From: Tunturiibacter empetritectus
GTDB taxonomy: Bacteria > Acidobacteriota > Terriglobia > Terriglobales > Acidobacteriaceae
Length of the DNA: 64,000 nt
Reading direction: 5' to 3'
Assembly: GCF_013410875.1 (NCBI RefSeq)
Contig: NZ_JACCCU010000003.1
Coordinates: 186,001 to 250,000 of the forward strand
A model generated the notes under the pieces. The model worked only from the letters and a program-made list of their open reading frames with translations, had not been told where the DNA came from and ran no database searches. Below, piece after piece: positions 52,706 to 57,628 of the stretch. The first letter of the stretch is position 1; each line of letters opens with the position of its first letter. A program made the translations under genes and the position numbers.

Positions 52706-53929
52706 TCACTCCGATCTCAGCGCCACAATCGGATCCAGTTGCGCGGCCTTTCGAGCCGGATAGACCCCGAAGAAGATTCCCGTACCGGTAGCCATCACCA
52801 GCCCGGCAATGACGCTCCACAGCGCAATCGTCGAAGGAAATCCTGCCAGAATCGTAATCGCCTGCGCCACCAGAATTCCCCCGATCACGCCGAAGACTCC
52901 GCCCACCAGCGCCATCGTTCCGGACTCAATCAAAAACTGCATCAGGATATCCTTTGGACGCGCGCCGAGAGCCTTTCGGATGCCGATCTCGCGCGTCCGC
53001 TCCGTCACGCTCACCAGCATAATGTTCATAATCACGATGCCGCCGACCACCAGCGAGATCAGCGCCACCGCTCCGGCCACCGCTCCAAACGACCGCGTTA
53101 CGATGCTGAAGAATCCCACCAGCGTATTGTTCGTATCCAACTCAAACGAGTCCTCGACTCCCGGAGCATCATGCCGGCTCGATCGCATCAGAACCCTCAC
53201 CTCGTCCGCCGCCGTCTCCAGCACCGGTCCAGCCTCGCCCGCCTTCACATAAATCGTCAGCGTCTTCTCCGTCCCATAGCTCTTCTGAAACGCCGTCAGC
53301 GGCACAGCCACCCAGTTATCCTGGCTCGCCCCAAACGTGCTCCCCTGCTTCTCGCTGATCCCAATGATCGTGTACGGGGTGCCGTCTACCCGCAACTCCT
53401 GTCCCAGCGGATCCATCCCCACAAAAAGATGGTCCTCAATATCGGTCCCGATGATCGCCACATGTGAGGCGTGCTCCTGGTCCGCCTCCGTGAACCCGCG
53501 CCCCTGCATGATGTTCAGGTTCTGCAGCGAAGGCATCTGCCACGTATACCCCCGGATGTTCGAATCGGTCGTGGACTCGGTCCCCCGCACAATCTTCCCT
53601 GTCACAGCCTGCTGCGCGCCAATCCCCACGCAGTGCCTGCAGTTCGCCGCCACATACTGAAAGTCGGGGTACAGGATGTTCTTGCGCTTCTGATACCGCT
53701 GATAGTCCTCCGGGCTGGTAATGATCTGAGGCATCTTCGAGACGGTAAAGACATCCGCGCCATAGCTGGCGAACTTCGTGGTGACATAGGTGTTCGCACC
53801 GTTGACCAGCGTCACCACCGCAATCACGCTGGCTACGCCGATGACGACGCCGAGCAAAGTGAGGACGGAGCGGAGTTTGTTCGCCCATAGCGACTGCAGC
53901 GCGATCTTTACGGCCTCTTTGAATTCCAT
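52706..53929 (-). CDS. MacB/FtsX-type ABC transporter permease 1
   Basis: A 407-residue MacB-family permease, a paralogue of the one downstream. It shares the N-terminal WANKLRSVLTLLGVVIGVASVI helix, the periplasmic domain, and the FtsX segment ALISLVVGGIVIMNIMLVSV with the TERTREIGIRKALGA loop and the final YPARKAAQLDPIVALRSE. It has a cysteine-containing insert (NCRHCVGIG) absent from its neighbour. ATG 53929 begins with MEFKEAVKIAL; the longer frame to 54175 runs over repeat-like DNA and is rejected. With the next gene it likely forms a heterodimeric efflux unit whose ATPase is elsewhere. Confidence 0.88.
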   Translation of the reverse strand: MEFKEAVKIALQSLWANKLRSVLTLLGVVIGVASVIAVVTLVNGANTYVTTKFASYGADVFTVSKMPQIITSPEDYQRYQKRKNILYPDFQYVAANCRHCVGIGAQQAVTGKIVRGTESTTDSNIRGYTWQMPSLQNLNIMQGRGFTEADQEHASHVAIIGTDIEDHLFVGMDPLGQELRVDGTPYTIIGISEKQGSTFGASQDNWVAVPLTAFQKSYGTEKTLTIYVKAGEAGPVLETAADEVRVLMRSSRHDAPGVEDSFELDTNNTLVGFFSIVTRSFGAVAGAVALISLVVGGIVIMNIMLVSVTERTREIGIRKALGARPKDILMQFLIESGTMALVGGVFGVIGGILVAQAITILAGFPSTIALWSVIAGLVMATGTGIFFGVYPARKAAQLDPIVALRSE

Positions 53930-54060
53930 CGCCCTGTCTACCTTGAGCTTGTCTACCTTGGGTACGCTTGAGACTATCAGCCAGTGGCCTCCAAAGCGAG
54001 ATTTCCCTTGCTCTCTCATACGCAATCGAGCAGCGTTTTGTTCGCCTAGCCCCAAAGAGG

Positions 54061-54130
54061 TGTCATCCAGAGCGAAGGCACTCACAGCACTATCGTGAGT
54101 GCCGCAGCCGAAAGACCCGCATTTGCCCTT
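54061..54130. repeat. 9-9-9 stem-loop repeat, unit 1
   Basis: Flanking words (GTCAT...CGAA, then GCAG..GAAAGACCCGCATTTGCC) match unit 2 at 54190-54258. Between them, a 9-bp stem (54077-54085 with 54095-54103) encloses a 9-nt loop. The stem is GGCACTCAC/GTGAGTGCC, sharing almost no sequence with unit 2. Confidence 0.75.
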
Positions 54131-54189
54131 GCCTATTCTCGTCCGCCACCCCATAGAAGTGCCTGTTCTCCTCACCCAAGCAAAAAAGC

Positions 54190-54258
54190 CGTCATCTCGA
54201 CCGAAGCGACGGACAGTCTCACCGTCCGTCGCGCAATAGAGAGACCCGTATTTGCCTT
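54190..54258. repeat. 9-9-9 stem-loop repeat, unit 2
   Basis: Same frame as unit 1, with stem GCGACGGAC/GTCCGTCGC (54206-54214 with 54224-54232) and a 9-nt loop starting AG. It is followed by GAGACCCGTATTTGCC. About 200 bases separate it from the surface-protein start. Confidence 0.75.
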
Positions 54259-54458
54259 TACTTCGCGACGCTCATCCAGCTGCCCCTTCGGCATGCTGGT
54301 CAGGGTCTATTTCGGCTAAAGTCACGGGGCAATAAGGTAAACTCGTCGCCGTCTACTTTTTATTTTTTGAGACCACTCCGATGCGCAAGCTGGGGATTGG
54401 TTATCGCTACAAATGCACGATTTTCTGCGCGAGCGTTCTACAGTTGGGAGCCAGTTTT

Positions 54459-57167: not shown

Positions 57168-57624
57168 CTGCAGACGGCTGGATGATCGCTGCCGCCCGGG
57201 CCGCAAGGCGTTGGGCGGGGGAGGAAAGTCCGAACTCCGCAGGGCAGTGTGCCGGATAACGTCCGGGACGGAGGCGTTAAGGCCTCTGGACGGCAAGTGC
57301 AACAGAGAATGAACCGCCTCAAGCTGGTGATTCGCCTCGGTGAATCCGTAAGCGGTTTGAGGTAAGGGTGAAAAGGTGCGGTAAGAGCGCACCGCGCGGC
57401 CAGTAATGGACGCGGCAGGGTAAACCCCACACGGAGCAAGACCAAATAGGCAGGGATCGTGCCGCTTCTCTTCAGGCGGCGCGAGCGTATCGGCCCGATG
57501 CGTCCAGGCGGAGAGACTCGAAAGAGAGCCGAAACTTGCGGGTAGGTTGCTAAAGCGCCGCAGTAATGCGTCGCGTAGAGGAATGATCGTCTAAAACAGA
57601 ATTCGGCTTACGGGCCGTCTGCGA
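57168..57624 (+). ncRNA. rnpB: RNase P RNA (class A)
   Basis: The catalytic RNA of RNase P, which matures tRNA 5' ends. The 5' and 3' ends pair as helix P1 (GCAGACGGC at 57170-57178 with GCCGTCTGC at 57614-57622). Conserved regions are GAGGAAAGTCC (CR I, about 57221) with the following GGGCAG, GGTAAGGGTGAAAAGGTGCG near 57362, TAAACCCCAC (57421-57430), and AGAGGAATGATCG near 57578 before ACAGAATTCGGCTTA. The length, about 455 bases, suits a class A RNA. A 60-base piece of its 5' end is repeated at 56346-56405. A hairpin follows. Confidence 0.93.
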
Positions 57625-57628
57625 ACCT

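Follow-up and report, generated by a model that had tools for sequence, protein, structure and literature searches.

Results

Two repeat units between divergent genes

Two repeat units lie in a gap between divergent genes in the 64,000-nucleotide stretch of DNA analysed here (the window), bounded by an ABC-permease gene on the minus strand, which starts near position 53929, and a plus-strand open reading frame that begins at 54381. Both units are read on the plus strand: a head, GTCATNNNGANCGAAG, is followed by a 9-nt loop enclosed in a perfect 9-bp stem and then by a tail that contains CCCGYATTTGCC. Unit 1 is a long-tip element at 54062–54127 with the tag TGTC (54061–54064). Its tip hairpin (54077–54103) is formed by the 5′ stem GGCACTCAC (54077–54085), the loop AGCACTATC (54086–54094), and the 3′ stem GTGAGTGCC (54095–54103), with Watson–Crick pairs at all nine positions. 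The outer arms of unit 1, placed from the sequence and the alignment columns (54066–54069 with 54112–54115), form two of four pairs, and for this reason the unit is read as a probably partly eroded copy. Unit 2 is a long-tip element at 54191–54256 with the tag CGTC (54190–54193), and in its tip hairpin (54206–54232) the stem GCGACGGAC (54206–54214) and its partner GTCCGTCGC (54224–54232) enclose the loop AGTCTCACC (54215–54223), again with nine of nine Watson–Crick pairs. Here, the outer arms are TCTC (54195–54198) and GAGA (54241–54244), and the 3′ tail CCCGTATTTGCC occupies 54245–54258. The tail extends as degenerate NTTGCY hexamer repeats in many other copies (for example, at L017, L043, and L104), and the three-unit pattern of these repeats is distributed 34:0 in favor of the C-rich strand.

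The shared flank words, the 9-9-9 spacing, and the perfect pairing on which the original prediction was built were all confirmed at these coordinates. Its description of the two stems as almost wholly different was too strong; both stems are fully paired, but the 5′ stems are identical at five of nine positions, and four of the nine pairs differ. When the plus strand was folded and compared with shuffled sequences, unit 1 came out moderately better than the shuffles (z −1.4 as DNA and −2.3 as RNA), and unit 2 gave z −2.2 and −3.8, respectively. The complementary strand of unit 2 is calculated to be more stable (−31.7 vs −26.0 kcal/mol as RNA, −15.6 vs −12.7 kcal/mol as DNA), the extra stability coming from further closure of the loop in the calculated fold. 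The weight of the structural case rests on the family and not on the folding of single units.

A scan of 53930–54390 against Rfam 15 gave no family match up to E = 1, and a simple promoter scan of 53900–54420 returned no promoter-like site. A described Rfam RNA was rejected as an identity for the units, RNase P being the only Rfam match in the window; the RNase P class A RNA gene is located at 57170–57626, and in two other genomes (G002 and G014) it follows directly after the permease start. An intrinsic terminator was likewise rejected, as the sole weak terminator-like site (54202–54187, minus strand; shuffles give 0.4) overlaps the head of unit 2 and lies off the tip hairpins.

A dispersed family of repeats

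The head GTCATNNNGANCGNAG occurs without mismatch 118 times in the genome that holds the window, compared with 2 occurrences of a reversed control, and when at most one mismatch is accepted, GTCATNNNGANCGAAG has 190 matches and its reversed form 14. With unit 2 as query, BLAST returns 41 matches in the same genome at E ≤ 10, unit 2 itself counted. The original prediction had left room for the two units being the only matches in the genome. This was rejected, since it holds just for exact copies of the 14-letter tail flank word GACCCGYATTTGCC, which are confined to the two in the window; with one mismatch, 2 further copies appear, vs 3 for the reversed control.

Of the 190 copies, 184 have a pyrimidine immediately 5′ of GTCAT (C in 131, T in 53), and 167 have a downstream match to the outer 3-base arm, compared with 70 of 190 for the reversed arm. 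Within these 167 copies, the two letters that follow the exact 3-base arm are AT in 56 and AC in 10 copies with a GAGC or GAAC head, and AT in 8 and AC in 67 copies with a GACC head. Both window units have AC at this position. Many copies are short forms such as GTCATCCTGAGCGAAGCGAAGGATCC, and others carry a long tip like that of the window units. The tip stem, which sits atop the outer stem, is 9 bp long in 103, 7 bp in 44, and 6 bp in 16 of the 166 matches from a long-tip scan in which the 9-nt loop is fixed by definition. Neighboring copies less than 200 bp apart (121 loci) point in the same direction in 18 cases and in opposite directions in 5. A recurrent form has a longer conserved stretch, GGATTGCGGCCACATCTC...GTTGCAGCGAACCGATTCATGCTGCGGTATCCGTCAAG, in place of the 3′ arm; it is present at L029:1500, L040:1501 and 2261, L050:1507, L071:2905, and L133:10243 (offsets on the strand of the element).

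Head counts in the genus were made in 50 genomes that are at least 90% complete, from a set of 60 that includes the genome of the window, and range from 1 to 417 per genome with a median of 86.5. Another family of the same order has 0 to 3 heads in each of 14 genomes, and in other families of the class, 7 of 26 genomes have 36 to 163 heads. In one of the latter genomes (G094), heads often form opposed pairs 62–76 bp apart, with at least 10 such pairs among the 40 listed of its 163 heads, unlike the arrangement in the genus. The same head followed by GGAGAGATCT is also found in Pedobacter, Clostridia, Cloacimonadota, and others; the long AGYYTYAYC tip was seen by eye only in Acidobacteriota or unnamed bins among the titled loci. 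The two units are best read as two copies of a REP-type repeat of Edaphobacter/Granulicella-like Acidobacteriota.

Pairing and covariation of the stems

Copies with a 9-9-9 tip number 75 (74 identified by script together with unit 2, whose tail escaped the pattern of the script) and contain 51 distinct stem pairs. Watson–Crick pairs account for 625 of their 675 stem cells, the remainder being 27 G–T, 9 A–C, and 14 other combinations. The observed pairing is 0.89 in the genome of the window and 0.91 in its relatives, compared with 0.62 and 0.64 when whole 3′ stems are dealt among the distinct pairs. In an alignment of 66 distinct copies, 91.7% of the positions of the outer and inner helices are paired, vs 76.1% in shuffled alignments, and the covariation score is 0.462 vs 0.165 with no shuffle reaching the observed value, although shuffles overstate independence because of relatedness among the copies and because the initial sets came from BLAST with unit 2, which favors like stems. 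The alignment was drawn from 68 distinct 9-bp matches, two of which were dropped once they were seen not to pair (L318, a chance match on a viral contig, and L372, a short form); other poorly paired copies were kept. Structures slid along the same alignment are 28–53% paired and have a covariation score of at most 0.13. Two-sided changes occur in 10 of 15 pairs, which by itself is a weak measure as the shuffles average 8.3 and 64 of 500 reach ten. Run unaided, RNAalifold recovers nearly the same stems, and counts two-sided changes in one or more sequences for 11 of its 13 pairs, with none shown for two of the pairs listed.

The expectation of many copies with variable yet paired stems is thus borne out, and the covariation measured on the 66 distinct copies agrees. 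The further suggestion of a structured family instead of a plain repeat is correct as regards the structured element, but the element is a dispersed repeat too. Judged from the aligned copies, the shape appears to be kept while the letters of the stem vary, and the outer ends and the loop change little.

A stepwise series of stems, GCGACGGAC/GTCCGTCGC, GCGGCGGAC/GTCCGTCGC, and GCGGCGGAC/GTCCGCCGC, is connected through a single G–T pair. On the GTCAT strand, G–T pairs outnumber A–C pairs by 27:9 in the 75 copies, 69:31 in 112 distinct stem pairs, 77:31 in the 166 long-tip matches, where the search pattern admitted some non-tip loops and the class of other mismatches is inflated for that reason, and 56:19 in 57 matches to a second repeat family (described below), a set that includes unrelated matches. 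Most elements lie on the C-rich strand, which has more C than G and more A than T, so that mutation bias alone should favor A–C. The excess of G–T runs against this bias and therefore suggests that folding of the GTCAT strand is constrained, be it as DNA or as RNA; the greater calculated stability of the complementary strand of unit 2 counts against this.

The conserved loop, a second repeat, and RAYT loci

The loop AGYYTYAYC is flanked by at least five of six pairs in 16 of 82 loop matches in the genome of the window and in 39 of 95 in its relatives, compared with 1 of 52 and 1 of 50 for a reversed-loop control. Outside the CGTC context, nearly all paired occurrences of AGYYTYAYC are found within a second repeat of the form GGGTGCCCCAT–stem–AGTCTCATC–stem–GTGGG, the stems of which also vary. 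Hairpins of the GTGCCCCAT type flank the Y1 gene or gene fragment on both sides in 4 of the 16 RAYT loci of the genus, i.e., L135 (repeats at L135:1335–1430 and 1971–2030), L137 (a gene fragment), L165, and L167. The loop AGTCTCATC, as in the window family, is present within one mismatch on both sides in 2 of the 16, L135 and L137, which both belong to the genome of the window; in L167 one flank carries this loop and the opposite flank a degenerate version of it, and the L165 hairpins have a different loop.

None of the 16 RAYT loci, four of which are truncated by contig ends, has its Y1 gene bracketed by CGTC heads. Across the 50 near-complete genomes, the head count is not significantly correlated with the Y1_Tnp count (rho 0.24, p 0.09) or with the count of L135-type RAYT genes (rho 0.12, p 0.42), and the proposal that abundance is driven by either kind of gene is unsupported by these values. 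Y1_Tnp matches at E ≤ 0.001 are absent from eight of the 50 genomes, which have 39–209 heads, and L135-type matches at E ≤ 1e-15 are absent from one that has 417.

Tips and loci compared between genomes

At one orthologous locus in four genomes, the head and tail are common and the tips differ. A short tip is present in the genome of the window (L111) and at L119, and a tip of 28 or 27 letters at L133 and L115; the longer tip amounts to a REP-like core of its own, CCCTGAGC...GTCGAAGGG, inside another REP. From the differing tips at this locus, the tips appear to be exchangeable modules. Similar tip differences are noted between L071 and L068 and between L072 and L076, where the flanks beside the element align less closely. 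At the locus of the window, G002 and G014, which are 99% identical in the permease piece, have neither unit between the permease and RNase P. A different element is found in G001, and G054 has kept unit 2 with the same stem but lacks the hairpin and the 3′ arm of unit 1. A BLAST search with the flanks gave no exact empty sites among the matches listed.

Strand bias, GC skew, and gene context

In the window and 40 stretches of 20 kb selected because they contain elements, the C-rich strand carries GTCAT at 137 of 145 heads, and a single orientation is observed at 26 of 31 loci with at least two heads. In 80 other stretches, of which 60 were placed at even spacing along three one-contig genomes and 20 fill gaps in the genome of the window, 37 of 46 heads lie on the C-rich strand (12:2 in G059, 19:7 in G041, 4:0 in G054, and 2:0 in the genome of the window). 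With the element itself excluded, the orientation of 56 of 57 copies in the latter genome matches the skew of the surrounding 3 kb. Five repeat patterns are distributed 91:5, 42:3, 49:3, 28:0, and 13:0 in the chosen stretches. In a composition check on the same stretches, the counts are 727:169 for the hexamer GTCATC, 34:10 for GCAGTCTC, 21:29 for GGCACGGC, and 4:3 for CTGACTAC, and base composition explains part of the strand bias. No bias is seen in other phyla (13:20 for 33 heads at 28 loci with record titles).

At most loci, third codon positions of genes on either strand and intergenic DNA are skewed in the same direction, and no correlation between skew and gene strand is seen (rho −0.23, p 0.15; 328 vs 364 kb of gene bases per strand); gene direction thus fails to explain the skew. 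Genes were called with a simple hexamer script, and all 10 of the genes sampled from the two strands had Pfam matches. Relative to the called genes, the 145 elements are placed in tandem gaps (50 sense and 35 antisense), convergent gaps (28), and divergent gaps (17), with 10 inside genes and 5 at gene edges, which corresponds to 85 elements in 80.2 kb of tandem, 28 in 24.1 kb of convergent, and 17 in 36.3 kb of divergent gap DNA.

The skew is very strong in its own right, with a size of 0.26–0.36 over 20 kb and about 0.4–0.7 at third codon positions; in the available text of SkewDB, about 2.5% is typical. Strong skew characterizes L102–L111 and L114 in the genome of the window and L115–L120 in relatives, is unrelated to the direction of genes, and reverses several times along a contig. 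The evenly spaced stretches in the three one-contig genomes revealed no replication origin, the sign of the skew switching many times, and the ribosomal L2 operon, used as a pointer to the leading strand, is associated with skew that is small or of mixed sign in most of 19 loci.

Discussion

Proposed mechanism and alternatives

We propose that the elements are REP-type repeats whose single-strand hairpin is read by its tag and loop, probably by a Y1/HUH enzyme, and assign this reading a probability of slightly less than one half (about 0.48). An element would comprise an unpaired CGTC/TGTC tag, a short outer stem, a swappable tip, CCCC, and a T/G/C-rich tail, where the tip of the window units would be a hairpin with a near-constant loop, AGYYTYAYC, and a free stem. 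The GTCAT strand would fold as single-stranded DNA, and an enzyme of the TnpA_REP kind would read the tag and the loop while needing only pairing in the stem, so that stem letters could drift through G–T intermediates and whole tips could be replaced. Strand bias may follow if copying or insertion is tied to replication polarity. The fixed tag, conserved loop, and free paired stem form the pattern of constraint seen for TnpA_REP, which favors a single-strand hairpin read by a Y1/HUH enzyme; the TnpA_REP enzymes of S. maltophilia and Marinomonas require certain loop bases and an unbroken stem, according to the consulted portion of PMC8266576. Several results weigh against this reading: none of the 16 RAYT loci has CGTC heads on both sides of the Y1 gene, the loop is shared at fewer of these loci than the hairpins are, head counts follow neither Y1_Tnp nor L135-type RAYT genes, the complementary strand of unit 2 is calculated to fold more stably, the matches listed include no exact empty site, and other phyla show no strand bias. 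An enzyme that acted in the past, an enzyme of another class, or a role at the RNA level might account for the repeats instead.

The covariation could also stem from selection on an RNA fold, if the elements are co-transcribed hairpins that serve in 3′ processing, stability, or anti-termination. The excess of G–T (G–U in RNA) on the GTCAT strand and the lower density of elements in divergent than in tandem or convergent gaps are compatible with such a role, but the sense preference in tandem gaps is weak, orientation tracks GC skew, which does not track gene strand, and the window pair itself is located in a divergent gap. Considering also that the scans gave no Rfam match and only a weak terminator-like site off the tip hairpins, we find an RNA element unlikely. 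Pairing might instead be a neutral outcome, restored without any selection on structure when template switching or gene conversion takes place between the two arms. The many perfectly paired stems and the whole-tip differences at the locus common to four genomes are in line with such repair. The conserved loop and the stepwise series with single G–T intermediates speak against it, as does the excess of G–T over A–C, which arm-to-arm repair does not predict, and neutral repair is in our estimation rather improbable.

Orientation might also be kept because a host fork or segregation factor reads the repeats through the hairpin, KOPS and AIMS being the systems with which such polar marks can be compared. 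A bias that is independent of gene strand and common to several repeat families is in line with this explanation, but copy numbers between 1 and 417 among near-complete genomes of one genus argue against a necessary role, the hexamer GTCATC is itself biased, and other phyla do not show the bias. Moreover, the skew sign switches often along one-contig genomes and gives no clear fork direction there. Taken together, marks of this kind are very unlikely.

Returning to a hairpin read by tag and loop, the free stems and the fixed loop and tag would show which parts are read, and the copies provide a precise set of substrates with which single-strand binding and cutting could be assayed. In a more far-reaching version, which we regard as a long shot, the AGYYTYAYC hairpin would be a module common to the CGTC repeats and the RAYT-flanking repeats, and a RAYT of the genus would act in trans on both, with copying so tightly bound to fork polarity that the repeats would preserve a record of which way each part of the chromosome is replicated. 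Such a RAYT would be the missing enzyme of the CGTC repeats, and if the bias is replicative, the repeats would offer a simple marker by which the ancestral direction of forks could be followed in rearranged chromosomes.

Comparison with known systems

In the sections consulted, the description of CGTC-tagged REPs by Di Nocera et al. 2013 (PMC3733652) names five phyla, which do not include Acidobacteria, and reports the super-family without a dedicated transposase. The stem of the super-family starts with complementary A–T and T–A pairs, and families 1 to 4 have stems of 8–9 bp, loops of 4–5 nt, and occur mainly as head-to-head dimers. As for those REPs, the elements described here have an unpaired CGTC/TGTC end tag and a palindromic body, are mostly intergenic and of high copy number, and flank no transposase gene; the short forms (GTCATCCTGAGCGAAGCGAAGGATCC) resemble them as well. 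Unlike families 1 to 4, they feature long tips with stems of mostly 9, 7, or 6 bp and a 9-nt loop, close neighbors point mostly in the same direction, and there is a strand bias. By tag, body, and spread, the elements thus seem to fit the CGTC super-family as presented in that source, while loop length and dimer habit would place them outside its four families.

Compensatory changes in REP-linked hairpins have already been described for REPINs in the consulted part of Bertels and Rainey 2011 (PMC3116915). Similar to REPINs and RAYT-linked GTAG REPs, the elements have conserved ends and a middle that is kept for hairpin formation. REPINs are of the GTAG type and consist of paired REPs in Pseudomonas, whereas the present elements have a CGTC tag, single units, nested stems, and a conserved loop. 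RepRanger (PMC12306157), in the text available, includes Granulicella aggregans in its tabulated palindrome predictions and reports that E. coli REPs occupy both strands and form no clear clusters. Neither these Acidobacteriota elements nor such a strand bias was found described in the literature searched, which consisted mostly of open-access text.

The ends of IS200/IS605 elements (IS608, ISDra2) are, according to the consulted text of PMC6006769 and PMC8266576, likewise single-strand hairpins, read in that case by a Y1 enzyme, and insertion takes place into the lagging-strand template. Unlike these elements, the repeats contain no transposase gene, and their polarity may be opposite: if the G-rich strand leads, the GTCAT strand is the leading-strand template, which is the reverse of the IS608-like expectation for an active GTCAT strand. 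The GTGCCCCAT-type hairpins beside the Y1 genes at L135, L137, L165, and L167 resemble the TIRYT/RAYT-flanking repeats covered in the consulted parts of PMC3733652 and PMC6006769. The CGTC elements do not flank the gene and have only the freely varying stems and, in some of the RAYT-flanking repeats, the loop in common with them.
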